A DNA stretch of 64,000 nt from Chloroflexota bacterium. GTDB taxonomy: Bacteria > Chloroflexota > Anaerolineae > Anaerolineales > Villigracilaceae. Of this stretch, positions 4,544 through 32,093 are shown one piece after another. The notes under the pieces are model-generated. The model was not told where the DNA came from. It did no database searches and was given only the letters and a program-made list of their open reading frames with translations. The translations under genes were made by a program, and so were the position numbers. Where the stretch lies: contig JACRBN010000022.1 in assembly GCA_016213105.1 (NCBI GenBank), forward strand, positions 1 to 64,000. Direction: 5' to 3'. How positions within the stretch are numbered: the first letter of the stretch is position 1; each line of letters begins with the position of its first letter.

Positions 4544-5677
4544 ATGAAAGTAACCGTCTTACAAGAAAACCTCGCCCGCGGACTGAGCACTGTGTCGCGC
4601 GCGGTGTCGCCGCGTAGCACGCTGCCCGTGTTGTCGAACATCCTGATCGCATCCGACGAGGGCCGCCTGCGCCTTTCGGCCACGAACCTCGAGCTGGGCA
4701 TCACGTGCTGGATTCCCGCCCGCATCGAACAGGAAGGTTCGACCACGGTGCCCTCCCGCACCTTCGGCGACTTGATCAACACCCTGCCCGTCGACCAGGT
4801 GCAGTTGAGCCTCGATGTTCAGACCCAAAGCCTGCATGTGCATGGCGGGACGTCGAACAACGACATCAAGTGCATCGATGCCCAGGAGTTCCCGCCCCTG
4901 CCCGTCCCCGACATGGACGGCGCGGTGCAGATCAACGTGGCTGACTTCAAGGAAATGATTCAGCAGGTAACTTTTGCCGCTTCGAGCGACGAGGCCCGCC
5001 CGGTGTTGATGGGCGTGCTGGTGACCGTGGAAAAGGATCAGATCACCATGGCCGCCGCGGACGGGTTCCGCCTGTCGGTGCGCAAAGCCACGCTTTCGAA
5101 CCCGGCGCAGTCGCCGATCACGGCCATCATCCCGGCCCGCGCATTGAACGAACTGGCCCGCGTGGCTGGCGATGGCGAGGAATCAATCTACATGGTCATG
5201 CCCAAGGGCCGCGGCCAGGTGCTCTTCCGCGTCAAGGATGTGGAAGTCGTCTCGCAGTTGATCGATGGCACCTTCCCCGATTATCACCAGATCATCCCGC
5301 GCAATTACAAGTCGCGCACGCTCGTGTCCACCACGGCCATGCTCAAGGCCTGCAAACAGGCGGAAATCTTCGCCCGTGAAGGCTCGAACGTGGCGCGCCT
5401 GGACATCAAGTCGGCGCAGGGCGAAATGCAGCCCAGCGAAGTGGAAATCTCGGCCACCTCGGAAGAGACGGGCAAGAACGAGACCATCGTCGAGGCCACC
5501 GTGGACGGCGGCAGCATGTTGATCGCCTTCAACGTCAAATTCCTGCGCGAGGCGCTCGAAGCCGTCAAGACGCCCAACGTGGCAATGGAGACTTCAGGCC
5601 CGAACGCGCCTGGCGTCATCCGCCCGGTGGGCGACGATGACTACATCCAGGTCATCATGCCGATGCACCTGGGGTAG
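4544..5677 (+). CDS. dnaN: DNA polymerase III subunit beta (sliding clamp)
   Basis: 377 residues, the normal length for the ring-shaped clamp that tethers DNA polymerase III to DNA. The N-terminus MKVTVLQENLARGLSTVSRAVSPRSTLPVLSNILI and the C-terminal PVGDDDYIQVIMPMHL block are typical, with three clamp domains of about 120 residues each. The C-terminal peptide that forms the partner-binding pocket (VIMPMHLG) is intact. Not accompanied by dnaA or recF, unlike the classic dnaA-dnaN-recF order; it lies about 21 kb from the putative oriC. It has its own promoter region upstream and a clear terminator downstream, so it is probably monocistronic. Confidence 0.97.
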   Translation: MKVTVLQENLARGLSTVSRAVSPRSTLPVLSNILIASDEGRLRLSATNLELGITCWIPARIEQEGSTTVPSRTFGDLINTLPVDQVQLSLDVQTQSLHVHGGTSNNDIKCIDAQEFPPLPVPDMDGAVQINVADFKEMIQQVTFAASSDEARPVLMGVLVTVEKDQITMAAADGFRLSVRKATLSNPAQSPITAIIPARALNELARVAGDGEESIYMVMPKGRGQVLFRVKDVEVVSQLIDGTFPDYHQIIPRNYKSRTLVSTTAMLKACKQAEIFAREGSNVARLDIKSAQGEMQPSEVEISATSEETGKNETIVEATVDGGSMLIAFNVKFLREALEAVKTPNVAMETSGPNAPGVIRPVGDDDYIQVIMPMHLG

Positions 5678-19055: not shown

Positions 19056-20107
19056 ACGAATATCTTTTTATCGCACTGGAAGAACTCAGCAAGAGACCTG
19101 TTTTTCTTCCAGCAAACTGGGATGAAGAAAAATACTTACGGGCCTCACGGGGTTTTGGCCGTATCTTTTTGGGATTGCTATCCATTTTGACTGTGGCAGC
19201 AGGTGGCATCTTGTGGTTCGTGACACCGTTCGAGCGATTGCAAGGCTCGCCGCTTTGGATGCCAGCTATCGTTTTATTAGGATTTCTCTGCCTGTTCCTG
19301 GTTTTTCGTAATAGGCCGGGCGATATGCGCTTATTGTTTTTGTGTAGTATTCCATTAGCCACTTCATTTGCCATGAATCTATGGAGCAACTTTAGTGTAA
19401 AAAACACAAACAACAATATTTATGTGTTCGTATTGATATTTGGCACATTTCTTCTCCCCGTTCTTTTTTTTCTTTTTACCGTTTCGATACAACCATTGGA
19501 TCCTTTACCCATCGAGTCGAGCCTTTTGCCCCTTTTCTATCCGGTACGCTTCCGACATTTGCGCAGACTGAGAGAGTTTTCTCAGGCAAGAGGGTGGACA
19601 GTGCACGGTCTGAACGGATTTTCACATAGATTGATAATCACCGGCCACTGGCAAGGTTGCAAAATAACCCTAGTTAGTTTGCGCATTTCCAACAAGCTTC
19701 CCAAACACCTCAAACGTCGGAATTTTGTTGACATTACACTTTACTGTGGAAAACATCTTACCCCACTGGAATTGAAACCTCGCACAAAACAAAATATAAA
19801 TGAGTCTGAACTTTTCATAAAGGGTTTCAGGGATGAATATCTACTCTGTAATTACTCATCGCAGCAAGTCTCTGCCAACAGCATAAATTTACTTAAATCA
19901 ACACTATCCGAGGGAGGAAAATTTCTCCGAAAATCTTCCGTTCTTGGCACAGTTGAGGGTGCTTTATTGTTTCGATGTTATGATTTGAAATTACTGGAAG
20001 ACATCAACATGCTGCACGACCTGTTGACATGGCTTGAAAAAATTACAGCCACCATGAAACTGCAAAACTTTTACATTGAAGAAGCCCTCCAGAAATTTGA
20101 GGATTGA
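19052..20107 (+). CDS. AT-rich orphan membrane protein
   Basis: 351 residues of no recognised family. Four hydrophobic segments occupy the first half (about 32-55, 66-86, 94-110, 123-148), followed by a soluble basic domain of about 200 residues with Lys/Asn-rich, AT-rich codons (for example TLYCGKHLTPLELKPRTKQ near 228). Base composition is clearly lower in GC than all neighbours. This suggests recent transfer or relaxed selection. The start ATG overlaps the tmk stop by four bases, so translation may be coupled. No catalytic motif could be identified. Confidence 0.7.
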   Translation: MNEYLFIALEELSKRPVFLPANWDEEKYLRASRGFGRIFLGLLSILTVAAGGILWFVTPFERLQGSPLWMPAIVLLGFLCLFLVFRNRPGDMRLLFLCSIPLATSFAMNLWSNFSVKNTNNNIYVFVLIFGTFLLPVLFFLFTVSIQPLDPLPIESSLLPLFYPVRFRHLRRLREFSQARGWTVHGLNGFSHRLIITGHWQGCKITLVSLRISNKLPKHLKRRNFVDITLYCGKHLTPLELKPRTKQNINESELFIKGFRDEYLLCNYSSQQVSANSINLLKSTLSEGGKFLRKSSVLGTVEGALLFRCYDLKLLEDINMLHDLLTWLEKITATMKLQNFYIEEALQKFED

Positions 20108-20110
20108 TCC

Positions 20111-20257
20111 ATGCCCACCTTGTATCTCTTCTCCACCTTCAGTTGCGAGAACAGGGAAGGAAAAGCGAAAACAGTAACCCCTACCTGCCCGTGGCTCCCT
20201 CCCAGTTGGGCCATCCAGGATGCATTGAGACAGGTGCTGTCAGAAAGGCTGGGCTGA
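20111..20257 (+). CDS. Possible 48-residue small ORF, perhaps a remnant
   Basis: A short open frame fits exactly between two genes: ATG 20111 is 3 bases after the previous stop, and its stop is one base before the next ATG. The opening MPTLYLFSTFS resembles the opening of the S51 peptidase downstream (MPTPNFHLFSTPG), so it may be a decayed copy of that N-terminus or a leader peptide. Evidence is only spacing and this short similarity. Confidence 0.35.
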   Translation: MPTLYLFSTFSCENREGKAKTVTPTCPWLPPSWAIQDALRQVLSERLG

Positions 20258-20258
20258 A

Positions 20259-20870
20259 ATGATCCCCTCCCTCATCAAACGCGTCAAAAAGACCGAACAC
20301 GGTTTTGCAGACATCCTGCTGGCCGCCGAGGAGGTCCACGCGAGTCACCCAGCGGCGGAGACTCTCGAACTTGCGCGGCAACTCTACGCCTCGGCCGTGC
20401 CCCAGGCGCGCATGCTGGCGACCTTCCTGTTCGGGAAACTGGCGGCGCACTCGAAGGAGGCGCTGGCCTTCCTGCACCTGCGCGTCAGCCTGGACGAGGA
20501 CTGGCGCGTGCAGGAGATCCTGGCCAAGGCCTTCGACCAGTATTGCAGCGACAGCGGTTACGAAGCCTCCATCTCCGTGATGCGCGACTGGCTCTCGGAC
20601 ACAAATCCCAACACACGCCGCGCCGTGACCGAGGGACTGCGCATCTGGACCTCGCGCCCGTACTTCGACGAACATCCGGAGGCCGCCATCCAACTGCTCA
20701 GTTCCATGCGTCTGGATGCCAGTGAATACGTCCGCAAATCGGTGGGAAATGCCCTGCGAGATATCAGCCGCAAGCACAAGAAACTGGTCGCATCCGAACT
20801 CGCAAAATGGGACCAGAACGACAAGCGCGTCCAGCAGGTCTACAAACTGGCCAGCCGATTCCTCAAATAG
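20259..20870 (+). CDS. AlkD-like HEAT-repeat protein (DNA alkylation repair family)
   Basis: 203 residues, entirely helical, made of about five HEAT-like repeats: ARMLATFLFGKLAAHSKEAL, DWRVQEILAKAFDQY, TRRAVTEGLRIWTSRP and EYVRKSVGNALRDISRKHK. This arrangement with Trp/Arg-rich repeats matches the AlkD/AlkC DNA-glycosylase superfamily, which removes cationic alkylated bases without base flipping. The family's catalytic Asp/Trp set cannot be assigned with certainty by eye, so enzymatic activity is unproven. It is followed by the S51 peptidase gene 4 bases later and is probably cotranscribed. Confidence 0.75.
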   Translation: MIPSLIKRVKKTEHGFADILLAAEEVHASHPAAETLELARQLYASAVPQARMLATFLFGKLAAHSKEALAFLHLRVSLDEDWRVQEILAKAFDQYCSDSGYEASISVMRDWLSDTNPNTRRAVTEGLRIWTSRPYFDEHPEAAIQLLSSMRLDASEYVRKSVGNALRDISRKHKKLVASELAKWDQNDKRVQQVYKLASRFLK

Positions 20871-20873
20871 CAC

Positions 20874-21560
20874 ATGCCCACACCCAACTTTCACCTGTTT
20901 TCAACCCCCGGCAGGGATGACCTGCGCTACATCCTCGAAGCCAGCCACCCGTATCTGGAAGGGAAGGAGGACGCGACGGTCGCCTACCTGCCCCTGGCCT
21001 CCCTGTACATCGAACGCTGGCAGGCACTGACCGCAGAGGCCTTCCAGGGCCTGGCGCGCCTGCAAACCATCAACACCGAGCTGATGCGCCTGCCCGAGAT
21101 GGAAGCCATCCTGCGGGAGGCGAAGCTGGTCTACATCCCCGGCGGAAACACCTTCCTGCTCAACCACCGCCTGCACATCAGCGGACTGATGCCCTACCTG
21201 AGGAAGAAAGTCCAGGCGGGGCTGCCGCTGGTGGCCTTCAGCGCGGGCACCATTCTGTGCGGGCCGAACATTCTCACCTCGAAGGACATGAACTCCGTGG
21301 GGACGCCACATTTCGACGGACTGGGCGTCTCGCCATTCAATTTCAAGACGCATTATCCGCTGGACGAAGCCGGGCAGAGCGCACTGGACGACTGGCTGGG
21401 AGATTATCAATTCTTCCATGACAATCCCATCGTCATGCTGACGGACGGCGCCTACGTGAAAAGCGAGGGCAGGAAGGTCGTACTCGTGCGCGGCGAGGCG
21501 TGGATCATGCGCCAGGACCGCGAAAAACACAGGCTCGAAGAAGGCCAGCCCATCGAGTGA
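20874..21560 (+). CDS. S51-family peptidase (dipeptidase E-like)
   Basis: 228 residues with the class I glutamine amidotransferase-like fold of dipeptidase E and cyanophycinase. The turn YIPGGNTFLL (about 87-96) and the nucleophile elbow AFSAGTILCG with Ser123 are present. The catalytic His is expected downstream, and THYPLDEAGQ near 158 is a candidate. Substrates in the family are Asp-X dipeptides or related isopeptides. It starts 4 bases after the AlkD-like gene and ends before a bidirectional terminator shared with the convergent surface-protein gene. Confidence 0.82.
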   Translation: MPTPNFHLFSTPGRDDLRYILEASHPYLEGKEDATVAYLPLASLYIERWQALTAEAFQGLARLQTINTELMRLPEMEAILREAKLVYIPGGNTFLLNHRLHISGLMPYLRKKVQAGLPLVAFSAGTILCGPNILTSKDMNSVGTPHFDGLGVSPFNFKTHYPLDEAGQSALDDWLGDYQFFHDNPIVMLTDGAYVKSEGRKVVLVRGEAWIMRQDREKHRLEEGQPIE

Positions 21561-21590
21561 GGCGGCGGGCCAAAGTCAGCGCAGCATACA

Positions 21591-21617
21591 AAAAGTCCCC
21601 GCAACCGGGGACTTTTC
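21591..21617. terminator. Bidirectional terminator between convergent genes
   Basis: AAAAGTCCCCG and CCGGGGACTTTT form a stem with flanking A and T runs (CATTTTTCTC follows on the plus strand). It serves both the S51 peptidase gene and the opposing surface-protein gene. Confidence 0.85.
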
Positions 21618-21653
21618 ATTTTTCTCATCAAATATAATCGTTTTGGGGCCTGT

Positions 21654-24600
21654 CTATTCCACAAAGGTATCCCATTTGCTCGCGCCCTGGGACACGATGA
21701 ATTCCTTGAACCAGCCCGACAGGTCCCAGTACATGGCCTGCCACATGTTGCTGCCGAAACCGTAACATTCCGCGTTGCGGAAGTCCTCGGGCAGGGTGTC
21801 GGGGAGCAGGCAGAGCGGCGTCTCGAGGCCGGTGTCGGGCGGCGCATCGGGCACTTCGCCCGTGCGGCTGTTGCGCTGGTTGGGGGTGGGGAAGCAATCC
21901 ATGAACCACGAGCCGTTGATATCGGGCAGGCGGCACCAACTCTGGTCCGCGATCTTGATGACCGAGTAGGTCTGCGCATCCTTGACGACGTTGTTGGGGT
22001 TCATCAGGCGCACCGTGTCGCCGCCGTCGCTGAGCAGGATATTGGTCTGGGAGGCGTAGAAGACGATGCGCTCGCCAACCTTGAGCGTCTTGCTCGGGAT
22101 GGTGTACGGACTGGAGCCCTGCCCGGCCGCGTCATCCAATTTCCAGCCATTCAGGTTGATGTCCAGCGGGCCAAGGTTGGCGATCTCGATGAACTCGTCG
22201 AAGACATCCACCTTGCCGTCCTGGTTCCAGTCGAAGCCCGCGCGCGGCATGAATTCATTGATCACCAGGGTGGTCGAGGGGGTGACGATCACCGCGCCCT
22301 TGCGGGTGGGCGTGCGGGTGGGGCTGGGCGTCTTGGAGGGCGTAGCCGTCACGCCCGCGGCCCAGTTGGCGTAGCCGGGCGTGCCGTAGATCCAGTTCCC
22401 ATCGGCATCCTTTTCGGTCGGGGTGCCGCCAAAGGTATACCAGTTGGCAGACATGTCACGGAAATTGACCAAATGACGCTCCATGGTGTAATAGCTGGGG
22501 GAGGACACGCCCGCCGGCCAGGCCCCGCCGCTGGCGTTGGCGGTGTCGATCAGGATGCCCGATGCATTCCTCAATTCCAGGGACTTGCCGTCATTGGAAA
22601 AGGTGGTCGAGATATTCTTGTTGATCACCACGCTCTCGAACGTCCCGGCGGGAGCCAGGATGAAATATTCGCCCGGGGCAATGGTGTGATCGGGATCCGA
22701 CGAAGTGAACACGATATTGATCGCGCCGTCGGTGGATTTGAGCGTCCAGCCGCTCAGGTCGACCGAGGCCGAACCGCGGTTGTACAACTCCACCCACTCG
22801 TCCGAGGAGCTGGCCTTCGTGCCCATCCAGGCGATTTCACTGATGACGACCCCCAGGGTGGGCGTGGGGGAGGGTGTGGCGGTACGGCGTGTGCCGGTGG
22901 GCGTGGGGGAGCGCGAGGGAGTGCGGGTGGGCGTGCGGGTGGGCGTGAAAGAGGGCACCACGGAAGGCGCCGTGACCGTATTGTCGGTGCTTGTGCTGGC
23001 CCGGTTGCTGTTGCCTGCCGGGTCCATCACCTTCCCCGCTGCAACAGAGGGGGTCACTGTCCCATTTTTGGACAGGCCAAGGGCAGACAGGGTAAACGTC
23101 TTGTGATCGCCTGAATCCGTGATGCTCCACGCAGAGACTGCCGCCGTTCCCGCCTGGGTGATGTCTTCCACAGTGAAGGTACCGGCATTGATGCCCTCGG
23201 AAAAAACCACCGTGAAGCGAATGGGCAGGCTGGTGGCCGGGTCGCGTTGACCGGCAGCCTGATTGACGGTCACGGTCGGAGCGGTGATGTCATAAAAAAC
23301 GATGTTGCCCGCGTCGCTGCTGGTGCTGGCGGTATTGTTGTTGCCCGCATAATCGGTCACGCGGTTGGCGGCGATGGTTGGGATGATCGTCCCGGACGCG
23401 CTCGCGGTGACCGCCGTCAGGGTAAACAGCATGTGATCCCCTGAATCCGTGATGGTCCAGGTCACGCCGGGCGCCGTGCCCTCCTGGGTGATATCCGAAG
23501 GGGTAAAAATACTGACGATGATCGGCTCCGAAAACTGAACCTCGAAATCGATTGGCAGGGTGCTCGTCGCCTCCGCCTGGTACCTGGCCCGGTTGACCGT
23601 CACCGACGGGGAAATTTCATCGCCATACGTCACTGCGTTGTCGACACTCGAACTGGCGGAGAGATTGGTATTCCCGGCTATATCCGCCACCATGTTGGAA
23701 TCGATGACCGGCTGTAATGTTGATGTGGGACCGCCAACTCCAGCAATCCCAACGGCCGACAAGGTGAAGGTCTTGTGGTCACCCATGTCGAAGATTTCCC
23801 AGGTAATCAGCGAAGACAGGATTGTTCCCATTTGATGGATGTCCGCAACGGTAAAGGTGGCGGTGTCGATTGGCTCGGAGAACACGACCGTGAAATCCAC
23901 TGGCGGGCCTGCGGCAGGGTCGGCCTGGCCAGATGCCTGGTTGACCGTCACGGTGGGGAGGATATTATCCACAAGGTAGTCTTCATCGATCAAAGGCTCT
24001 GTGCCCGTCAAGACTTCTCCCATCGTATCCACAATGCTTGGGGAAGCGACCAGATTCAGGCTCACAACACCATTAAGATTCCCCAAATTGACCGATGAGA
24101 CCTGAATATCGTACACGTTGCCTTCAACAGGCAAAAAGGTCAGTGCATATCCCGTTACCCCATTGACAATGAAATCACCCGCATCTACGTTGACAACCGG
24201 CTCACTAAAAATTGCGCGGAATGTCAACGTATCAGAATTCGTGATACGCGCGATCGGAGCTTGGCGCGTGAACGAAACCACGTAGGGATCAACCAGGTTA
24301 TCCAGGACAATATTTTTATTGGCCGAAAGCGAGTTGGGCCCGCTCGGGCTTGGAAGGGCTAAACTGGCGCCCCCCACGGCTCCTATGATCGTGCCGCCGT
24401 TCAGGGACAGGGCGTCCGCCCCGAGGTAATCCAGGTCAGCCGAGGCATCGCCTGCCTGCACAATGTAATTGAAGGTCAGGGTATCCGTGCCGCTGCCGCT
24501 GGCGTAGCTGGCAAATCCATCCTGCAGCCCGGTTTCGAGCTGCAGCACAGGCGTACCTGTCACATTCACATTCGAACTGAATTGCACCGTCACGGCAATG

Positions 24601-25289
24601 ACGGCGTTGGTGGTGTAATATCCATCCGTAGTAGTGGACGAGACATCGACCACATAGAGGCAAGGCAGGGGCAGGCTGGCTGAATTTTGCGGGCTGCTGG
24701 GGGAGATGTTCGTAAAGTCGATGCTATTGTCGTTGGCGTCGATGCAGCCATTCCCAATGCGCTCATAGCTTTGATCGGAGGTACCACTCAATTCAACCAG
24801 GGCTGTACCTTCCCGATAGGTTGTATCTTCGCACATCCCAACCTGGTCGATGACCGTGTAAGTCGGCGAGTTATTGTAAGTTAGCGCAATCCCGCCGGTA
24901 TCCGCAATTCCCAGGCTGGTTGTAACATCCGGGAGAACCGAGCCTGAATACGTACTGCCGGCCACCAGGTACCGTCGATGCGGTTCCAACGAAACTGCGG
25001 CAAACGTATGCAAATTACCAAGGGTTGTTCCGCAACCGCTGGACGCCCGCAATCTCAAACCGCCCAGGGGAATGGAAGCCTCGGTGGGATTGTAGATTTC
25101 AATAAATTCGTCATTGCCCCCATTGGGGCCAGTCGTGCGAAACTCACTGATCACCAAGCTGGTAGCAAGCTGTTCCTGGGGCGCAGCCTCCGCAGACCGC
25201 AAGAATATCCCGCCCAGCCAGGCCAACAGGCCGAGCAGCAGGGAAAGGGTCAACAGTCCGCGGGCAAACCGGGGGAGACGAATGGGCAT
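21654..25289 (-). CDS. Large secreted lamin-tail / Ig-like domain surface protein
   Basis: 1,211 residues from ATG 25289. A Sec signal peptide (LTLSLLLGLLAWLGGIF, cleavage near AEAAP) leads to a first lamin-tail domain (LVISEFRTTGPNGGNDEFIEIYNP). Then come about 600 residues with at least four Ig-like units, several starting TVTVNQA or SVTVNRA and running into FTVVFSEPI. A Thr/Pro/Arg linker (residues near 795-830) and two more lamin-tail domains (VVISEIAWMGT.., LVINEFMPRAGFDWNQDG) follow. There is no clear LPXTG or C-terminal anchor. Probably an extracellular adhesin or matrix protein; the lamin-tail domains may bind carbohydrate or attach enzymes. The Thr/Pro linkers are likely glycosylated. 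Confidence 0.85.
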   Translation of the reverse strand: MPIRLPRFARGLLTLSLLLGLLAWLGGIFLRSAEAAPQEQLATSLVISEFRTTGPNGGNDEFIEIYNPTEASIPLGGLRLRASSGCGTTLGNLHTFAAVSLEPHRRYLVAGSTYSGSVLPDVTTSLGIADTGGIALTYNNSPTYTVIDQVGMCEDTTYREGTALVELSGTSDQSYERIGNGCIDANDNSIDFTNISPSSPQNSASLPLPCLYVVDVSSTTTDGYYTTNAVIAVTVQFSSNVNVTGTPVLQLETGLQDGFASYASGSGTDTLTFNYIVQAGDASADLDYLGADALSLNGGTIIGAVGGASLALPSPSGPNSLSANKNIVLDNLVDPYVVSFTRQAPIARITNSDTLTFRAIFSEPVVNVDAGDFIVNGVTGYALTFLPVEGNVYDIQVSSVNLGNLNGVVSLNLVASPSIVDTMGEVLTGTEPLIDEDYLVDNILPTVTVNQASGQADPAAGPPVDFTVVFSEPIDTATFTVADIHQMGTILSSLITWEIFDMGDHKTFTLSAVGIAGVGGPTSTLQPVIDSNMVADIAGNTNLSASSSVDNAVTYGDEISPSVTVNRARYQAEATSTLPIDFEVQFSEPIIVSIFTPSDITQEGTAPGVTWTITDSGDHMLFTLTAVTASASGTIIPTIAANRVTDYAGNNNTASTSSDAGNIVFYDITAPTVTVNQAAGQRDPATSLPIRFTVVFSEGINAGTFTVEDITQAGTAAVSAWSITDSGDHKTFTLSALGLSKNGTVTPSVAAGKVMDPAGNSNRASTSTDNTVTAPSVVPSFTPTRTPTRTPSRSPTPTGTRRTATPSPTPTLGVVISEIAWMGTKASSSDEWVELYNRGSASVDLSGWTLKSTDGAINIVFTSSDPDHTIAPGEYFILAPAGTFESVVINKNISTTFSNDGKSLELRNASGILIDTANASGGAWPAGVSSPSYYTMERHLVNFRDMSANWYTFGGTPTEKDADGNWIYGTPGYANWAAGVTATPSKTPSPTRTPTRKGAVIVTPSTTLVINEFMPRAGFDWNQDGKVDVFDEFIEIANLGPLDINLNGWKLDDAAGQGSSPYTIPSKTLKVGERIVFYASQTNILLSDGGDTVRLMNPNNVVKDAQTYSVIKIADQSWCRLPDINGSWFMDCFPTPNQRNSRTGEVPDAPPDTGLETPLCLLPDTLPEDFRNAECYGFGSNMWQAMYWDLSGWFKEFIVSQGASKWDTFVE

Positions 25290-25397
25290 CAGGGTCAACT
25301 CAAGGCAGAGCGAAATTCACGCAATGAAAACAGGCCTGGTCCAACAGCGCCAGCCTGATGGAATTATAAACCACCCTACTTAAAAATATATGAACCA

Positions 25398-25420
25398 TGC
25401 GGCCCCAGGTCGGGCCGCCT
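25398..25420 (-). terminator. Probable spoVS terminator hairpin
   Basis: On the minus strand GCGGCCC-GACCT-GGGGCCGC is followed after about 10 bases by ATATATTTTTAAG. It lies about 30 bases after the spoVS stop. The T-run is not immediately adjacent, so this is a moderate call. Confidence 0.5.
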
Positions 25421-25448
25421 CGTGAAACCTGTAAAATGTCCGGTAAAA

Positions 25449-25709
25449 TCAACGCGGCGCGACAACCAGTTTGATGGCCGTGCGCACCTTTGTCTCGATC
25501 TCCACGTCCACGAACTCGGGGACGCAGACCACCTCGATCCCGTCATTCTTCAGGTACCCGGTGGCCAACACCAGCGCCTTGACGGCCTGGTTCACGGCGC
25601 CAGCGCCGATGGCCTGTACCTCCGCCCGTTTGTGCTCACGGACGACACCCGCGATCGCCCCGGCGACTGCAGCGGTGCGGGAGTTGGCTGAGACTTTAAT
25701 CATATCCAT
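25449..25709 (-). CDS. spoVS: Stage V sporulation protein S (SpoVS) family, Alba-like
   Basis: 86 residues from ATG 25709, which has GGGAGG 6 bases upstream; ATG 25703 is a close alternative (MIKVSANSRTAAVAGAIAG). Matches SpoVS along its whole length, including AIGAGAVNQAVKALVLATGYL and the conserved C-terminus. SpoVS has an Alba-like fold and is a suspected nucleic-acid binding protein. It is widespread in non-sporulating bacteria, including Chloroflexota. Here it borders the putative oriC and is transcribed away from it. A structural or regulatory role at the origin is speculation. Confidence 0.93.
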   Translation of the reverse strand: MDMIKVSANSRTAAVAGAIAGVVREHKRAEVQAIGAGAVNQAVKALVLATGYLKNDGIEVVCVPEFVDVEIETKVRTAIKLVVAPR

Positions 25710-25827
25710 AATGAGCCTCCCAATGAGTTGGAGTTTGGGGCTTTCAATAACGATTGTACAGGAATCCCCCCTTATATTCAAGCAGTATATTAGTAGGGTA
25801 TCCTATTATAGAAATAGTAGTAGGGGC

Positions 25828-25845
25828 TGTGGAGGATGTGGAGAA
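25828..25845 (-). promoter_or_regulatory. Tandem reverse DnaA boxes next to DnaA-trio sequence
   Basis: TGTGGAGGA and TGTGGAGAA lie head to tail with no gap (complements TCCTCCACA and TTCTCCACA). A GC step GGGGC and three TAG trinucleotides sit immediately to the left. Confidence 0.7.
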
Positions 25846-26020
25846 CCGCCGTCCGCCCCCAGATACGGGAGACCGTCATGACCCGCCCCCCAGCCCTTGG
25901 CCTGATTCCGTTTGCGGGCCGATGCGCCGCTGTGGAGAGAAATGGGACAATCCCAGGGACAATTTATCCACAAAATCAACATATTGTCCACACTTCCATA
26001 TGTTGGGAGGCTCAAAAATA

Positions 26021-26040
26021 CCCCCCCATATATGGGGGGG
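26021..26040. repeat. Perfect 20-bp C7-ATATAT-G7 palindrome inside oriC
   Basis: Seven C, ATATAT, seven G, self-complementary over its whole length, with nothing similar elsewhere in the window. It sits in the roughly 100-base gap between the two groups of forward DnaA boxes. Confidence 0.9.
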
Positions 26041-26225
26041 GTGCTGTGGGGCTGGCAAGCCTCATTTTTCGAACAGTTGAGCCATTTGTCCACAATGGGA
26101 GGGGTTTATCCACAGTTTTCCGCAACTTATCCACAGATTGGAGTTAGTCTCTCGCTTTTGTCGGGACAAGCGACCTCCCAAATATGGCCTATACTGGAAA
26201 TGTTCCCAAAACTATACGCAATGGG

Positions 26226-26891
26226 TCAATCCTCCGCGGCGCGGGCCACTTCCTCCGGCTCGAAAACCACCTCATCCTTGCCCGTCAGCTTCTCCTCCAC
26301 CTTCTTGACGATCAGGCGCAGGTGCCCGGGATGGGCCACGTAATCCAGATCGTCGGCCGGCACGGAGAGCATCGGGCAGAGCGTGAAATTGTCGATCCAC
26401 TGTTCGTACAGGTTGTTCAGGCTGTGCAGGTACTCGGGCGCGATGGTGCGCTCGTAATCCCGTCCGCGATTGGAGATGCGCTTGAGCAGGGTCGGCACCG
26501 AAGCGCGCAGATAGATCACCAGGTCGGGCGCCGGCAGGAATTGCATGGCGGTTTCGTACAATTCGCGGTAGGTCTGGTAATCGCGTTCGGAGATATACTC
26601 CTGCAGGTACAGGTTGCGGGCAAAAATTTCGGCGTCTTCGTATAGACTTCGATCCTGGATCACCGACTCGGCCCGCTGCGCGAGGCGCACGTGCGACCGC
26701 AGGCGGTGGGTCAGGAAAAAGACCTGCGAATGAAACGCCCAACTCTTCATGTCGCCATAGAAATCCGCCAGGTATGGATTTTCATTGACCGGCTCGAAGA
26801 ACGGTTCCCACCCCAGATGGTCACATAACATCGTCACGAGCGTGGATTTACCCACGCCGATATTACCTGCCACGGCTACGAATTTTTTCAT
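26226..26891 (-). CDS. Deoxynucleoside kinase (dNK/dGK-dAK family)
   Basis: 221 residues. Phosphorylates deoxynucleosides in the salvage pathway. P-loop GNIGVGKST at 9-17, the catalytic/substrate Glu in FFEPV (Glu33), the DRS motif at 80-82 (IQDRSLYED) and the LID region SNRGRDYER (about 160-168) are all present. Length and motifs match the bacterial dGK/dAK branch; substrate preference cannot be read from sequence alone. The start ATG 26891 has TCTGGAGGGAG upstream. Its stop is within a few bases of the oriC region. Confidence 0.92.
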   Translation of the reverse strand: MKKFVAVAGNIGVGKSTLVTMLCDHLGWEPFFEPVNENPYLADFYGDMKSWAFHSQVFFLTHRLRSHVRLAQRAESVIQDRSLYEDAEIFARNLYLQEYISERDYQTYRELYETAMQFLPAPDLVIYLRASVPTLLKRISNRGRDYERTIAPEYLHSLNNLYEQWIDNFTLCPMLSVPADDLDYVAHPGHLRLIVKKVEEKLTGKDEVVFEPEEVARAAED

Positions 26892-26947
26892 CCTTCTCCC
26901 TCCAGAGGAAATGAGTTTGGTTTTTGGATCATTGGGTTCATGAAAAT

Positions 26948-26973
26948 CCCGCTGGATCTTTCAACCCAGCGGG
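26948..26973 (-). terminator. Terminator after the DsbA-like gene
   Basis: On the minus strand CCCGCTGG and CCAGCGGG form the stem and ATTTTC follows. It lies about 20 bases after the stop codon of the 26992-27732 gene. Confidence 0.75.
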
Positions 26974-26991
26974 CGTCATACGAAAGGCAGC

Positions 26992-27732
26992 TTACGGCAG
27001 GGTGCCAGCCAGTTCCTGGTCGATGACCTGCTTGAAATACTCGAGTGGATACGCGCCAATGACGGGATAGCCATTGACGTAGAAGGTCGGGGTGGAACTC
27101 ACGCCGATGGAGATCGCATACTCGGAGTCTTTTATGATCTCCGTGTCATGGCGCCCACTGGACAGGCATTCCTGAAAGGCCGCCACGTCCAGGCCGAGGT
27201 CGGTGGCGTATTGGATGTAGACCGCCTCTCCCAGGTCGGCGCTGCTCAACAGCTTTTCGTGATAGGGCCAGAAGGAGGCCTGGTCCTGGGCGCACAGCGC
27301 GGCCACGGCCGAGGGGTAGGCCTCGGGGTGGATCGAGGTCAACGGGAAGTTGCGGTACACAAAGCGGATCTGGCCCGGGTAGGCATCCAACAGGGCCTGA
27401 TAGGTCTCATCGTGGAATTTGCGGCAATACGGGCATTGGAAGTCGCTGAACTCGACGATGGTGATGGGGGCGTCTGCGGGTCCCTGGCTGGGATAGCCGT
27501 CGGTGGATACATTCACGCGGCGGGGAACCTGTGTGGCGGCCGGGGCCTGAACCTGGGCCTGCTGGGCTGCCCCTGGCGCGGCGGCCACAGTGCTTGCGCC
27601 GCTGCTGCCCCAGGCGTATCCGATCAGGACACCCACGCCAAAGGCCAGCGCAACCAGGAGCATATAAAAGTGGCTGCGCTTGAGGGTGATGGTGTTTTCT
27701 TTACTGGAACGGGTGTGGGCTTTTTCATTCAT
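26992..27732 (-). CDS. Membrane-anchored DsbA-family thiol oxidoreductase
   Basis: 246 residues. A cytoplasmic N-terminus of about 20 residues, a transmembrane helix (22-42), an Ala/Gln/Pro linker and then a thioredoxin-fold domain with the active site Cys100-Pro-Tyr-Cys103 (FSDFQCPYCRKF). The cis-Pro loop SSTPTFYVNG is near residue 213. This is the DsbA/BdbD type that forms or isomerises disulfides in exported proteins. No DsbB/VKOR partner gene is adjacent. Start ATG 27732; terminator at 26948-26973. Confidence 0.9.
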   Translation of the reverse strand: MNEKAHTRSSKENTITLKRSHFYMLLVALAFGVGVLIGYAWGSSGASTVAAAPGAAQQAQVQAPAATQVPRRVNVSTDGYPSQGPADAPITIVEFSDFQCPYCRKFHDETYQALLDAYPGQIRFVYRNFPLTSIHPEAYPSAVAALCAQDQASFWPYHEKLLSSADLGEAVYIQYATDLGLDVAAFQECLSSGRHDTEIIKDSEYAISIGVSSTPTFYVNGYPVIGAYPLEYFKQVIDQELAGTLP

Positions 27733-27836
27733 AGGCGGGGATTATACTGCCTAATGCGGCAGGTCGCGGGGAAATTTCAGCGTTCGAATTTGCATCCTTC
27801 GGACGCAAGACCCGTATATATTTCATGGAGGCCCCA

Positions 27837-28067
27837 ATGACAACGAATACAAAAAACAATTCCACCCCCTGGTTTCTCTGGCCGTTCGTGGCGATCTGGC
27901 GTTTGCTGGCCGTGATCGTGGAGATGACGGGCCGCTTCGTGGCGATGGTGCTCGGCATCGTCTTCATCGTCGTCGGTGTGATCGTCAGCCTGACGGTGAT
28001 CGGCGCGATCATCGGCGTGCCGCTGGCGTTGATCGGTTTATTGCTGTTTCTGCGAGGTTTGTTATAA
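27837..28067 (+). CDS. Small two-helix membrane protein
   Basis: 76 residues from ATG 27837, preceded by GGAGG at 27827-27831; an upstream ATG at 27825 overlaps that ribosome site and is less likely. There is a Thr/Asn-rich N-terminus, a first hydrophobic segment (about 12-30), then a long hydrophobic stretch (36-70) with Gly residues: VLGIVFIVVGVIVSLTVIGAIIGVPLALIG as its core. It is similar to short membrane proteins found widely with no known role. It is followed by a palindrome that can terminate both converging genes. Confidence 0.7.
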   Translation: MTTNTKNNSTPWFLWPFVAIWRLLAVIVEMTGRFVAMVLGIVFIVVGVIVSLTVIGAIIGVPLALIGLLLFLRGLL

Positions 28068-28071
28068 AAAG

Positions 28072-28099
28072 GTAGGGCGAGATTATTATCTCGCCCTAC
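28072..28099. repeat. GTAGGGCGAG palindrome, doubling as bidirectional terminator
   Basis: GTAGGGCGAGAT and ATCTCGCCCTAC form a perfect stem. A-rich DNA lies on the left and GGTTTTAA on the right. It belongs to a family of GTAGGG..CCCTAC palindromes also at 50751-50777, 51711-51734, 51751-51775 and in-frame at 59602-59628. Confidence 0.8.
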
Positions 28100-28103
28100 G
28101 GTT

Positions 28104-28787
28104 TTAATCCAGGGGGGCCTGGGGCCGCGGACGCGGCTCCTTGAACGGGACCCGCAGACGGGTCCAGAACGAGGCCAGGGGGCGTTTCACGGCGGGGATG
28201 CGCAGGATCATCAGCAGCAGTAAAACAATCCCATACACCAGCGGACGCAGGATGTCGCCCTGCAGGCTGAAGATGTCGCCTTTCTTGCTCCAGGCGTAGT
28301 GCAGGATGACGAGCGGGGCGATGAAATAAATCACCTGGTGCAGGCGCTTCCAGTTTTTCTTGAGCCGAATTTTCCAGATGTCGAAGGAGGTGACGGCGAG
28401 CGGGATGAGCAGCAGGAAGGCGGTCATGCCAACCAGGATGTAGGGCTTCTGGAAGACGGTCTGGAGGATGAGACTCCAGGCCAGGCCATAATCCAGGTCG
28501 GCGAAGATGATGACGTGGATGGCGGCATACATGAAGGTATACAGCCCCAGGGCGCGGCGGCGTTTGAGGGGTTCCTTCCAGCCGAAGAGGCTGTTGAGCG
28601 GGGTGCAGGCCAGCGACAGCAGCAGCAGGGTGACGGCGGCGCGGCCGGTGCGCTGTTCGATGGCCTGGATGGGGTTGGCGGTCAGGTTGTCGGCTAGGAG
28701 GTCGACGAGGATGCGCGCCAGGGGAAACCATGCGCCGAGGTGCATGATGATCTGAAGCGGGGTGTAGCGTTGCAGGAATTTTTTCAT
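28104..28787 (-). CDS. msrQ: Protein-methionine-sulfoxide reductase heme-binding subunit
   Basis: 227 residues with six predicted helices of the ferric-reductase-like transmembrane domain. Conserved features include LGAWFPLARI, GRAAVTLLLLSLACTPLN (about 48-65), RRALGLYTFMYAAIHVIIF (about 76-94, heme-ligand His) and the later WKRLHQVIYFIAPLVILHYAW, with two further His. MsrQ passes electrons from the respiratory chain or flavin to MsrP to repair methionine sulfoxide in envelope proteins. The catalytic partner is encoded upstream on the same strand, 270 bases away across a tandem repeat. Confidence 0.93.
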   Translation of the reverse strand: MKKFLQRYTPLQIIMHLGAWFPLARILVDLLADNLTANPIQAIEQRTGRAAVTLLLLSLACTPLNSLFGWKEPLKRRRALGLYTFMYAAIHVIIFADLDYGLAWSLILQTVFQKPYILVGMTAFLLLIPLAVTSFDIWKIRLKKNWKRLHQVIYFIAPLVILHYAWSKKGDIFSLQGDILRPLVYGIVLLLLMILRIPAVKRPLASFWTRLRVPFKEPRPRPQAPLD

Positions 28788-28816
28788 GTGATTCGATCAA
28801 GGTTTGTGAAGATACA

Positions 28817-29057
28817 GGTCCGCGCTGAGCGGAGGGACGGCGATCTTCCGTCCCGCAGTCGAAGCGTGGTATGTCCTGGGACAGTGTGGATTGCGGCAAC
28901 GGTCCTGCGACTGCGTTCGGACGAAGGGTCCACGCTGAGCGGAGGTCCTGAGCCTGCCGAAGGGCCGTAGTCGAAGCGCAGTATATCTTGGAGCAGTATC
29001 CATTTCAGCAACGGCCCTTCGACTACGTTCGGACGAAGAGTCCGAACTGGGCGGAGG
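28817..29057. repeat. Two tandem copies of a 110-bp repeat between msrP and msrQ
   Basis: Copy A (28817-28926) and copy B (28927-29038) each begin GGTCC[GA]CGCTGAGCGGAG, contain [AG]GTCGAAGCG and end TACGTTCGGACGAAG or TGCGTTCGGACGAAG. A partial third start follows at 29039-29057 (GTCCGAACTGGGCGGAGG). Short inverted CCTTCGAC/GTCGAAG pieces occur within. It separates msrP from msrQ; no gene is present. Confidence 0.75.
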
Positions 29058-30008
29058 TTAATACTCTACCATCAAATCCATGCCATCGTACAGGTGCGCG
29101 ACCTGTTCGGCGTAGCCGTTGAAGGGCAGGGTCTCGCGGCGGGAGAGTTCACCGATGCGCCGCTCGGAGGCCTGCGACCAGCGCGGATGCGGCCGCTCGG
29201 GATTGACGTTGGAGTAGAAGCCGTACTCGCGCGGGTTGGCGTCGTTCCACAGGGTCGAGGGCTGGTAATCGACCAGCTCGATCTTCACGATGGACTTGAT
29301 GGACTTGAAGCCATACTTCCACGGCACGACCACGCGGATGGGGGCGCCGTTCTGGTTGGGCATGGGCTCGCCGTACAGGCCCGTGGCGAGGAGGGTCAGG
29401 TCATTCATGGCCTCGTCCAGGCGCAGGCCTTCCTGGTAGGGCCAGGAGTAGAAGGCCGATTTAAGCCCGGGCATTTCGTCGGGGCGGCTGACGGTCTCGA
29501 AGCGCACGAATTTTGCGTCCGAGGTCGGCTCCACTTCCTTGAGCAGGCTGGCCAGGGTGAAGCCCGTCCACGGGATGACCATGCTCCAGGCCTCCACGCA
29601 GCGCAGGCGATAGATGCGTTCCTCCTGCGTGAAGTTCCTGAGCAGGTCTTCGATGCCGTAGGTCTTCGGCTTGTTCACCAGCCCGTAGACTTCGACCGTC
29701 CAGGGCGAGGTGGTGAAACCCTGGGACAGCGGTGCCACGCCTTCCTTGGAGGTGGTGAACTCATAGTAATTATTATAGTTGGTGATGTCTTCGTAGGTGT
29801 TGAACGGGCCGCCGAGTTCGTCGGTCCGTCCGTTCGCCTGGGGGATGGGGCCGCTGGGCGTGGCGGCTGCCTGGGGCGCGCAGGCAGCCAGCAGCGCCGA
29901 GCCTGCGGCGAGTCCGGCTGCCTTGATGAAGTCGCGCCGCGAGAGATACAGCGACTTGGGGGTGATCTCTGAGGGGAGCACGGGAACGGATTTGTATTGG
30001 TTGTTCAT
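29058..30008 (-). CDS. msrP: Protein-methionine-sulfoxide reductase catalytic subunit
   Basis: 316 residues. A periplasmic/exported molybdenum enzyme that reduces free and protein-bound methionine sulfoxide. It carries a twin-arginine signal ([10 protein letters not shown], Arg24-Arg25) and a hydrophobic h-region ending in LLAACAP. That sequence resembles a lipobox, so it may be a lipoprotein. The sulfite-oxidase fold follows, with the Mo-ligand Cys137 in [15 protein letters not shown] and the conserved [17 protein letters not shown] near 220. MsrQ lies downstream. Start ATG 30008 gives a standard N-terminus. Confidence 0.95.
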
Positions 30009-30136
30009 GATTTGCCTCTAAACAGTCTGGTGGATTTGTCTCCTTGATGGAGCGTTTGCGTGAAATCTTGCCCCCGCACGATGATGAAAGGCTGAGAGGT
30101 CGGTTAAGGGAGGGTGAGTGAAATGCCCGACGCGGC

Positions 30137-30817
30137 CTACAATTTGAAGGGCGCGCCTGTTTTTTGGATCTCAACCCGCCCGCTGCGATAAAGCGTGACC
30201 TGTCCCGCGCCATGGACTGTCCATTCATCCTGGGCTGAGATCATGCCCGTGTGCTCATCGATGCCGATCAGGGTCGCACCGGGCAGCAGTTCCGTCAATT
30301 GCGCCGCCCAGCGATGGCCGAAGTTGTTGTGATGCGGCAGGACGCAGGCGTTGGGAACCAGTCCCAGCCCCGACAGAAGTTTCCCCTCGTATGGATCAAA
30401 ATAATGTTCGCACAACACCATCGCGCCCGCGCTCGAGCCTGCGAGGACCGCGCCGTTGCGATGCGCGTCCAGCATCGACTTCCATGCCAGGCTGTTGGCG
30501 AGCGTCTCGGCGGTGAAGCGCGGAAAGCCGCCCAGCAGGTAGATCAATTTTGCGGAGCGCAGGGCTGCGGCAATGACCTCGTCGTTCGCGCTGGCCTGGT
30601 CGATGACGGATGCCACTTCCACGTCCGTTGCGCCCAGCGACCTGAACCAGCGCAGGCTGTTGTTCCCCGCGCGGACGTGGTTGTTGTCCGCTGCGGCGGC
30701 GGTGGGCAGGATGCAGATCGGCGCCGCAAAGCCGCCGGCCAATTCGATGGCGCGCAGGTCAGGCTCGGACATGCGACCGCCAAATTCCGCGCCGCCGGCC
30801 AGCAGGATGTATCCCAT
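30137..30817 (-). CDS. Cyanophycinase-like S51 peptidase
   Basis: 226 residues. An S51 fold with GGAEFGGRMSE near the N-terminus, LIYLLGGFPRFTAETL (about 91-106), and the nucleophile elbow LAGSSAGAMVL with Ser129. LPHHNNFGHRW (about 175-185) supplies His residues of the active site. It is closer to cyanophycinase than to dipeptidase E by these motifs. No cyanophycin synthetase (CphA) is in the window, so the substrate may be another beta-aspartyl peptide. It lacks a signal peptide. It is 46 bases from the flavoprotein gene on the same strand. Confidence 0.8.
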   Translation of the reverse strand: MGYILLAGGAEFGGRMSEPDLRAIELAGGFAAPICILPTAAAADNNHVRAGNNSLRWFRSLGATDVEVASVIDQASANDEVIAAALRSAKLIYLLGGFPRFTAETLANSLAWKSMLDAHRNGAVLAGSSAGAMVLCEHYFDPYEGKLLSGLGLVPNACVLPHHNNFGHRWAAQLTELLPGATLIGIDEHTGMISAQDEWTVHGAGQVTLYRSGRVEIQKTGAPFKL

Positions 30818-30863
30818 TCGATCTCCAGTTTTTGAACCGAGTTGAAGAGAAGGCTGTTGTAAA

Positions 30864-32093
30864 TTAGACCTTCGCAGGTGATGGATTTTCCAGCCATTGC
30901 ATTACGCCGCGCGCGGCGATGCGCCCGCTGGCGAAACAGGCCGTGAGCAGGTAGCCGCCGGTCGGCGCTTCCCAATCCAGCATTTCGCCGGCGCAGAACA
31001 CACCGGGCAGGGACTTCAACATCAGGTGCCCATCGACCGACTCGAAGGTCACGCCGCCCGCGCTGCTGATGGCCTCGTCCAGCGGGCGCGGACGGACCAG
31101 CGGAACGGGCAGGCGTTTGATGGCCGCGGCCAATTTAGCTGGATCGGTGAAATCCTCTTTGGGGATGAACTCGTGCAGCAGGCCGACCTTCACGCCCTTG
31201 AGGCCAATCGTCTTTTCGATGTGGCTGGACATCGAACGCGATCCGCGCGGCCTGGCCAGGGCTGCGGCCAGCTTCTCCTGCGTGGAACCCGGCGCCAGGT
31301 CCAGAAAAAGCACGGCGCGGCCGTGGCTCTCGATCTCATCGCGCAGGCGCGCGGAGGCGGCGTAGACCAGGCTGCCTTCCACACCCTCCTTCGTGATGAT
31401 GAACTCGCCCTGCTGATGAAAATCCCCAAACGAGAGGATGACGGATTTGATGGGCTGGCCCTCGAAGCGCGAGCGGAAATGCTCGGACCAGTCCACGTCG
31501 AAGCCGCAGTTGGCGGGACGCAGATCCCGCACCTGGACACCGGCCTGTCTCAGACCATCGACCCATTCTCCGCTCGAGCCGAGGCGCGCCCAACTGCCGC
31601 CGCCCAGGGCCAGGATGACCGCGTCGGCGCGGACGAGCGTTTCGCCCTCGGGCGTCTCGAAGCGCAGGGAGCCGTCCGCGTCCCAGCCCATCCATTTGTG
31701 GCGCAGGTGGACGGTCACGCCGCTTTGGTCGAGGCGCTGAAGCCAGGCGCGCAGCAGCGGACTGGCCTTCATGCCCACGGGAAAGATGCGCCCCGAGGTG
31801 CCGACGAAGGTCTCGACGCCGAGTTCGCTGGCCCAAGCGCGCAGGTCGTCGGGCGTGAAGTCTTTGAGCCAGGTCCCGACCTCGCGCGCGCTGTAGCGGC
31901 TGACGAAACGCTCGAAGGGTTCGGCGTGCGTCAGGTTGAGCCCGCTCTTGCCGGCCATGAGGAACTTGCGTCCAAGCGAGGACATCGAGTCATACACATC
32001 CACGCGGAGATGGTTTTGGCTGAGCACCTCGGCGGCCATCAGGCCGGCGGGTCCTCCGCCGACGATGGCGATGGTTGGTTGGGGGAGAGTCAT
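30864..32093 (-). CDS. HI0933/BaiN-type flavoprotein (TIGR03862-like)
   Basis: 409 residues from ATG 32093; the longer frame to 32147 would run into the tetR promoter. The N-terminal FAD-binding Rossmann motif IAIVGGGPAGLMAAEVLS, the family block GRKFLMAGKSGLNLTHAEP (about 42-60), the central SGRIFPVGMKASPLL, and the C-terminal GVFCAGEMLDWEAPTGGYLLTACFASGRIA all match the HI0933 family of NAD(P)/FAD-dependent oxidoreductases, specifically the TIGR03862 branch. The substrate is unknown. It is divergent from tetR; the intervening 86 bases hold the TetR operator, which could also affect this gene. Confidence 0.9.
   Translation of the reverse strand: MTLPQPTIAIVGGGPAGLMAAEVLSQNHLRVDVYDSMSSLGRKFLMAGKSGLNLTHAEPFERFVSRYSAREVGTWLKDFTPDDLRAWASELGVETFVGTSGRIFPVGMKASPLLRAWLQRLDQSGVTVHLRHKWMGWDADGSLRFETPEGETLVRADAVILALGGGSWARLGSSGEWVDGLRQAGVQVRDLRPANCGFDVDWSEHFRSRFEGQPIKSVILSFGDFHQQGEFIITKEGVEGSLVYAASARLRDEIESHGRAVLFLDLAPGSTQEKLAAALARPRGSRSMSSHIEKTIGLKGVKVGLLHEFIPKEDFTDPAKLAAAIKRLPVPLVRPRPLDEAISSAGGVTFESVDGHLMLKSLPGVFCAGEMLDWEAPTGGYLLTACFASGRIAARGVMQWLENPSPAKV

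Follow-up and report, generated by a model that had tools for sequence, protein, structure and literature searches.

In Bacillus subtilis, the basal unwinding system (BUS) guides DnaA from its boxes over a GC step onto DnaA-trios, and the DNA is opened (PMC6669920, PMC8287927). As worded in these papers, the search rule for such systems calls for a box with at most two mismatches lying 0–16 bp from a run of three or more NAN trios and for a second box with at most four mismatches, and GAT is given as the commonest trio beside the box (PMC6669920, PMC8287927). The origin of Thermotoga maritima is described as having a minimal length of 149 bp and as depending on the phasing of specific boxes (PMC10316083). 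A search for 'chloroflex' in the main text of the paper on the DoriC collection of predicted origins returned no match (PMC6323995).

A DnaA-dependent oriC is taken here as a cluster of DnaA boxes beyond chance expectation, with an AT-rich unwinding element adjoining it, that is conserved at about one place per genome. Judged by its sequence, the region 25,771–26,187 of the 64,000-nucleotide stretch analysed here (the window) is very probably the DnaA-dependent chromosomal oriC of its genome, in a layout found across the phylum Chloroflexota. The original prediction of a complete-looking oriC between spoVS and a deoxynucleoside kinase gene (dNK) is supported by the conservation of both the box array and the unwinding module. 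New in this layout are the remote and oppositely oriented array, the frequent association with spoVS, and a palindrome phased with the array. The genome (G000) comprises 5.385 Mb in 28 contigs and the window lies on contig C21.

The unwinding module and the forward boxes

An AT-rich duplex unwinding element (72% AT) was found at 25,771–25,823, adjoining the DnaA boxes. The 53-bp windows starting at 25,770–25,772 are the AT maximum among all starts from 20,000 to 32,000, and the window mean is 40.5% AT. The inner end of the element consists of five DnaA-trios, TAG-AAA-TAG-TAG-TAG (25,809–25,823, + strand), which read 3' to 5' outward from the boxes give GAT GAT GAT AAA GAT. They are followed by the 4-bp GC spacer GGGC (25,824–25,827), often GCCC-like in relatives, and by two boxes on the - strand: the trio-proximal TCCTCCACA (25,828–25,836), with two mismatches to TTATCCACA, and the trio-distal TTCTCCACA (25,837–25,845), with one. 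Two tandem reverse boxes had been predicted at 25,828–25,845; their positions hold, and both are degenerate rather than consensus boxes. In many relatives the trio-proximal box is nearer to the consensus, and both boxes are more degenerate than those of a second module on the same contig (see below). The GC step followed by TAG and AAA triplets running into AT-rich DNA reads exactly as first described. The claimed DnaA-trio layout also agrees with the published BUS rule, since a two-mismatch box lies 4 bp and a one-mismatch box 13 bp from five consecutive trios, with GAT next to the box.

On the + strand, the five predicted forward boxes were recovered at the same coordinates and with the same spacing. 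All are exact: a pair formed by TTATCCACA (25,964–25,972) and TTGTCCACA (25,984–25,992), and an array formed by TTGTCCACA (26,086–26,094) and two further copies of TTATCCACA (26,106–26,114 and 26,127–26,135), the last of which closes a conserved 50-bp array at 26,086–26,135. Starts within the two groups are spaced by 20, 20 and 21 bp, and a similar pair with 20-bp spacing is present in the same-genus genome G160. The whole window contains six exact TTRTCCACA boxes, five of them packed into 172 bp. This clustering exceeds chance: among 150 third-order Markov simulations of the 64-kb window, the mean was 0.63 exact boxes per 64 kb and none contained two within 180 bp. Tandem TTRTCCACA pairs occur at four places genome-wide, three of which belong to the spoVS-dNK origin region. 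Between 21,000 and 31,000, no known RNA gene was matched in Rfam at gathering score.

From the box sequences and their 20/21-bp spacing, DnaA would be expected to load on the phased array (26,086–26,135) and on the pair (25,964–25,992). DnaA at the reverse pair (25,828–25,845) would be guided over the GC step to reach the trios (25,809–25,823) in single-stranded form, and, by the layout and its conservation, DnaA on the trios would open the AT-rich element in the direction of spoVS. A loop or a filament may bridge the gap of roughly 255 bp that separates the array from the unwinding module. If the published findings for B. subtilis and T. maritima are a guide, the DnaA bound at the array and the pair probably works together with that at the reverse pair.

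Conservation, neighbouring genes and GC skew

The exact form of the array is box-11-box-12-box (9-11-9-12-9), 50 bp in all. The triple-box pattern was found in 67 of 80 genomes of the family and was absent by this pattern from the other 13; its reversed control had no match. Sixty-nine of the 71 family arrays have the exact 50-bp form and are spread over the same 67 genomes, which bears out the expectation of the original prediction that the boxes should be conserved in related genomes. The array is accordingly found at about one place per genome, two 50-bp arrays occurring among these family genomes only in G000 and, identical in sequence, in G177. A looser pair pattern was detected in 72 of 150 genomes of the class (reversed control, 3). 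Scanning named genomes with the array pattern yielded at least 120 stretches; among the 120 listed, 114 belong to Chloroflexota by title or by the genus or order name, including Chloroflexaceae, Herpetosiphon, Roseiflexaceae and Thermomicrobiales. Relatives that bear the array on a long or complete sequence include Pelolinea submarina (NZ_AP018437.1) and Longilinea arvoryzae (NZ_DF967972.1). The six listed titles that lack a Chloroflexota name are from Cytophagales, Albibeggiatoa, Clostridia, Gracilibacteria, Parvimonas and one other. One Anaerolineaceae contig (L266, PABH01000023.1) has two 50-bp arrays 2 kb apart on the - strand (488–537 and 2544–2593).

The unwinding module was sought with the expression [TC]CNCA-(2-6)-CTA[CT][TGA]A on the strand opposite to the array. 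Merging identical arrays left 139, of which 132 had at least 450 bp upstream and 131 were usable downstream. On the expected side and strand the motif was found at 78 of the 132 non-redundant arrays, a few of these matches looking like chance (e.g. L265, L315 and L348), and it was missing from the other 54. The distance from array to motif has a median of 255 bp (quartiles 235–259). Control counts were 2 for the same strand, 1 and 6 (of 131) for the downstream side, and 3.5 on average (maximum 6) for shuffled sequences. A stricter two-box pattern was present in 33 of 150 class genomes, with no match for its reversed control; it lay less than 1 kb from a listed array in 12 of the 33 and away from any in 21.

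Facing the unwinding side of the origin is spoVS (25,449–25,709, - strand; 86 aa; PF04232, 4.6e-34), solved structures of whose relatives exist (2eh1, 2ek0). A candidate sigma-70-like spoVS promoter, TTGAAT-17-TACAAT, was recognised by consensus match at 25,753–25,781 (- strand); it abuts the AT-rich element and points away from the origin, and its hexamers and 17-bp spacer are also visible in G160 and in the second module. On the array side, dNK (26,226–26,891, - strand; PF01712, 1.4e-52) is transcribed toward the origin. A lamin-tail/Big repeat protein (21,654–25,298, - strand; PF00932, 5.7e-45) is a neighbour outside the origin proper. The order dNK-oriC-spoVS recurs in G160, and is not universal across the family arrays. 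Of the 71 family arrays, 49 (in 48 of the 67 genomes) have spoVS beside them, 246–717 bp off and on the unwinding side, and in 47 of the 120 listed named loci spoVS lies within 1.2 kb of the array; as it is absent beside 22 of 71 family arrays, it was ruled out as a fixed neighbour. Among 69 family arrays, a set that leaves out two arrays of 52 and 53 bp, 19 have dNK and 9 have pyrC within 6 kb, and none has both. Among the 120 listed named loci, which the spoVS and dnaA counts cover in full, 7 have dnaA adjoining the array; dnaA is also near the array in several other loci of the class. With neighbours varying in this way and dnaA near the array in some loci, the array has stayed constant in form through changes of neighbour. 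In one family genome (G089), dNK and spoVS stand near each other without a box cluster on its contig C21 (L110 6744–7358 and 9727–9969), and the array is on another contig, so that the origin seems to have moved away.

A dnaA-linked origin would have dnaA or dnaN close by. In the present genome, dnaN (4544–5677, + strand; PF02767, PF00712, PF02768) is about 20 kb from the origin region, and dnaA lies on contig C9 (TIGR00362, 520 bits against a cut-off of 343.9). The original prediction was thus right in placing the origin away from dnaA-dnaN and in finding no dnaA within the 64-kb window; its figure of 21 kb for the distance to dnaN is corrected to about 20 kb. A competing origin at dnaA was set aside, as the 20 kb around the gene on C9 contained only two one-mismatch boxes and no cluster. 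A reading frame in G200 (L253, C1 at about 1.911 Mb) carries a stretch of 94 residues resembling the N-terminus of DnaA (61% identity) and is otherwise not DnaA; it possibly encodes a mobile replication protein.

Box clusters also occur outside origins, as in the DnaA titration site datA of Escherichia coli. Seven DnaA boxes (four exact) point in one direction at C24:287,507–287,680 (L011 10008–10180) in the present genome, so non-origin clusters occur in it as well. No unwinding module was found at this cluster by the strict pattern, nor near its counterparts in G027, G111 and G061 by the regular expression, and its setting, with a NeuB-family gene on one side and an RmlD/epimerase-family gene on the other, is the same in five family genomes (also L114, L105, L107 and L186). 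On these grounds the C24 cluster was set aside as an origin and regarded as a possible titration site. The existence of such a conserved cluster without a detected unwinding module, together with the intergenic position of the window cluster upstream of spoVS and the candidate spoVS promoter abutting the AT-rich element, would suit a view of the window cluster as a DnaA-regulated promoter region of spoVS/dNK or as a titration site. We hold this to be extremely unlikely, since the form of the array is constant whether its neighbour is pyrC, dNK, dnaA or none of these, since neither kind of site needs trios beside an AT-rich element, and since the 50-bp array is almost always single within a genome (67 genomes have 69 in all).

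For an oriC at the array, a switch in GC skew is expected at the same place. Cumulative skew over contig C21 is lowest at 21.8 kb, a point 4 kb away from the window module. Two single-contig relatives were sampled: G027 (about 18% of its 4.40 Mb, in 40 stretches of 20 kb each) and G200 (10% of its 3.97 Mb, in 20 stretches). The array of G027 is at 506 kb; its sampled cumulative skew is lowest at 565–675 kb, levels off from 2325 kb and peaks at 2875 kb. The best two-segment switch in this genome falls at 895–1005 kb (t 4.95, reached by 1 of 300 permutations), as against 3.89 for the interval of the array. When the genome is split into halves, the best position is 705 kb, 17% of positions fit at least as well as the array, and another box cluster at 150 kb fits equally (0.039 vs 0.038). 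In G200, whose array is at 3905 kb, skew was mostly positive between 105 and 2105 kb (10 of 11 samples) and mostly negative between 2305 and 3905 kb (7 of 9 samples). The fit is best at 505–705 kb (t 4.14, reached by 19 of 500 permutations) vs 4.10 and 3.36 for the intervals flanking the array sample, and 10% of positions fit as well. Sampled skew in G160 shows at most a weak change at the origin. The sampled skew of G200 and G027 is hence compatible with a switch at the array, other positions fitting equally or better; it agrees coarsely with an origin there and does not decide the matter.

A second module on the same contig

A second origin-like module lies outside the window at C21:86,232–86,963 (L009 2232–2963), inverted relative to the first. 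It consists of a reverse 50-bp array found by the triple pattern (C21:86,232–86,281), a palindrome core at C21:86,332, an unwinding part found by the strict pattern (C21:86,523–86,550) and a second spoVS gene, spoVS2 (C21:86,661–86,963; PF04232), which is followed by a homologue of the lamin-tail protein (48% over the best alignment of 676 columns). The gene order, pyrC-oriC-spoVS-pyrF-pyrE-pyrD, is that of G061, G111 and G027. Among these neighbours, Pfam identified pyrF as orotidine decarboxylase and pyrD as dihydroorotate dehydrogenase; pyrC matched as an amidohydrolase only and pyrE below threshold, and these two names are our own assignment. Another full-length pyrC is present in the genome at C25:133,717.

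Could this module be the active origin (C21:86,232–86,560, beside spoVS2) and the window module a duplicated or decaying copy? Its unwinding boxes, TTATCCACA-CTATCCACA, are the better ones, and the order pyrC-oriC-spoVS is shared with G061, G111 and G027. We nevertheless regard this as very improbable: the first module and its neighbouring genes are common to G160, whose sole 50-bp array is the module-1 one, the second module sits at a contig end of foreign composition, and the skew minimum of the contig is at 21.8 kb, not 86 kb.

The segment at the contig end has a GC content of 0.548, and its tetranucleotide frequencies correlate with samples of its own genome at r 0.56, as against 0.84–0.92 for the other seven segments. 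They shift toward G061 (r 0.75) and G027 (0.74), and not toward G111 (0.55). From about 81.4 kb, identity to G160 drops from 94% to 82–84%, and the identity to L295 ends at 92%; this break lies inside an icd-like gene of the isocitrate/isopropylmalate dehydrogenase family (PF00180). Module 1 matches G160 on both sides, and the whole genome of G160 is without a second 50-bp array. Single genes disagree, pyrF being nearer to G061 (89 vs 74%) and pyrE nearer to G160 (88 vs 79%). The second module is thus either recombination-acquired DNA or a chimeric contig end, and we lean slightly to a chimera. A reading in which two complete DnaA origins, diverged from each other and separated by 60 kb, are natural parts of this chromosome, and in which recombination within icd brought in the second one from a relative, seems rather unlikely to us. 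The question whether two origins can exist naturally on one bacterial chromosome has been raised in the literature (PMC4403523); the second module, if real, would provide a test case.

Palindromes beside the array and comparison with described origins

Palindromes of the general form CCCCCATATATGGGGG accompany many of the arrays, and the k-mers enriched in origin regions are parts of CCCCATATATGGGG. In the window, CCCCCCCATATATGGGGGGG lies upstream of the array (26,021–26,040) and the core CCAAATATGG on its far side (26,178–26,187), with its centre 96.5 bp from the array start, which is one of two preferred downstream places. Among 125 loci selected by flank length, the core CCATATNTGG was present in 46 of 73 with the unwinding motif and in 15 of 52 without it. 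As background, the rest of those loci (553 kb) contained it 4 times and the samples from G027 and G200 (1,200 kb) 13 times. In the sample set by flank length, an upstream palindrome was found within 110 bp of 55 of 132 arrays.

The distances between palindrome and array step by about one helical turn. Upstream, the bp from palindrome centre to first box were 37.5 (3 sites), 47.5–48.5 (17), 57.5–59.5 (30), 66.5–67.5 (2), 76.5 (1) and 87.5 (2). The 19 downstream palindromes lie 39.5–41.5 (9), 50.5–51.5 (9) or 73.5 bp (1) from the last box. With sites grouped by spacer sequence (53 groups upstream and 19 downstream), phase concentration at 10.5 bp was 0.88 upstream and 0.92 downstream, values reached by none of 20,000 random sets, in a test that was devised after the pattern had been seen and whose groups are partly dependent because the genomes share ancestry. 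Periods from 10 to 11 fit about equally, most sites occupying two steps per side.

The strict form CCCATATNTGGG occurs at three places in the present genome (C21:26,025, C9:34,937 and C2:58,067, the last spanning 58,067–58,078), compared with one for its read-backwards control. At least one strict palindrome was found in 72 of 80 family genomes, most having a few and G205 having 34 strand matches. The copy on C9, CCCATATATGGG (C9:34,937–34,948; L010 10938–10949), is 330 bp upstream of the assumed dnaA start, an arrangement seen in one genome, and stands where no DnaA box cluster was found.

The upstream palindrome of the window is terminator-like on the - strand, which is the strand of dNK: a GC stem at 26,042–26,020 is followed by ATTTTTG. 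As a simple intrinsic terminator of dNK (or of pyrC), the palindrome would not be an origin element at all. We consider this unlikely. The T tract that is present in the window is uncommon overall: a T-rich tail (at least 5 T in 8) follows at just 11 of the 55 sites when one side is read and at 7 when the other is, so that a terminator reading is not general. Distances are also phased on both sides of the array despite differing spacer sequences (53 groups among 55 sites). The retention of the ATAT core even with a stem of 5–6 bp points the same way, weakly, because the core was required by the search.

The palindrome phased with the array may instead mark, or bind, a protein that acts together with DnaA. 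Such a protein, perhaps dimeric, would occupy a constant helical face with respect to the array, an arrangement for which no precedent was found. To our knowledge, a phased palindrome has not been described as an origin component; a string search of open-licence papers for four spellings of the palindrome found none, which is no proof of an undescribed element. If the same putative protein were bound at the site 330 bp upstream of dnaA, origin firing would be coupled to initiator supply. The full proposal, that Chloroflexota origins consist of two DnaA modules and CCCCCATATATGGGGG palindromes at whole helical turns, the latter bound by a dimeric protein that also binds upstream of dnaA and so couples firing to initiator supply, is put forward tentatively, as a reading falling a little short of even probability. 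The phased palindrome offers a concrete bait for an origin-binding protein, and the site near dnaA suggests a possible role for it. The 50-bp pattern and the unwinding module together could locate origins by sequence in a large and mostly uncultured phylum, which would be useful when growth rates are estimated from read depth in metagenomes.

A site that lies in the origin and also occurs at a replication gene is known for CtrA- and MtrA-type origin regulators, as is the case for the palindrome here, the sequence of which is unlike CtrA and MtrA sites. The boxes of T. maritima belong to another sequence class than those of the window. The unwinding element described for T. maritima resembles that of the window in its three tandem TAG repeats, and the minimal origin differs in its length of 149 bp (PMC10316083). 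The combination of DnaA boxes and an unwinding element is shared with the origins predicted in DoriC, for which DnaA-trios are also recorded (PMC6323995). An origin far from dnaA as well as from dnaN has a precedent in Synechococcus lividus PCC 6715, whose origin is unlike the present one in having the cyanobacterial box TTTTCCACA and, in the passage that describes it, no spoVS linkage (PMC6323995). The closest likeness is to the BUS of B. subtilis, which shares with the window two tandem boxes, a short GC step and 3'-GAT-5' trios leading into AT-rich DNA, the box-to-trio spacing in the window being inside the published limits (PMC6669920, PMC8287927). Unlike in B. subtilis, the array here is about 255 bp away and in opposite orientation, the origin is not beside dnaA, and a phased palindrome has been added. 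The present case is in line with the view, proposed in the literature, that the unwinding system of B. subtilis is ancient.
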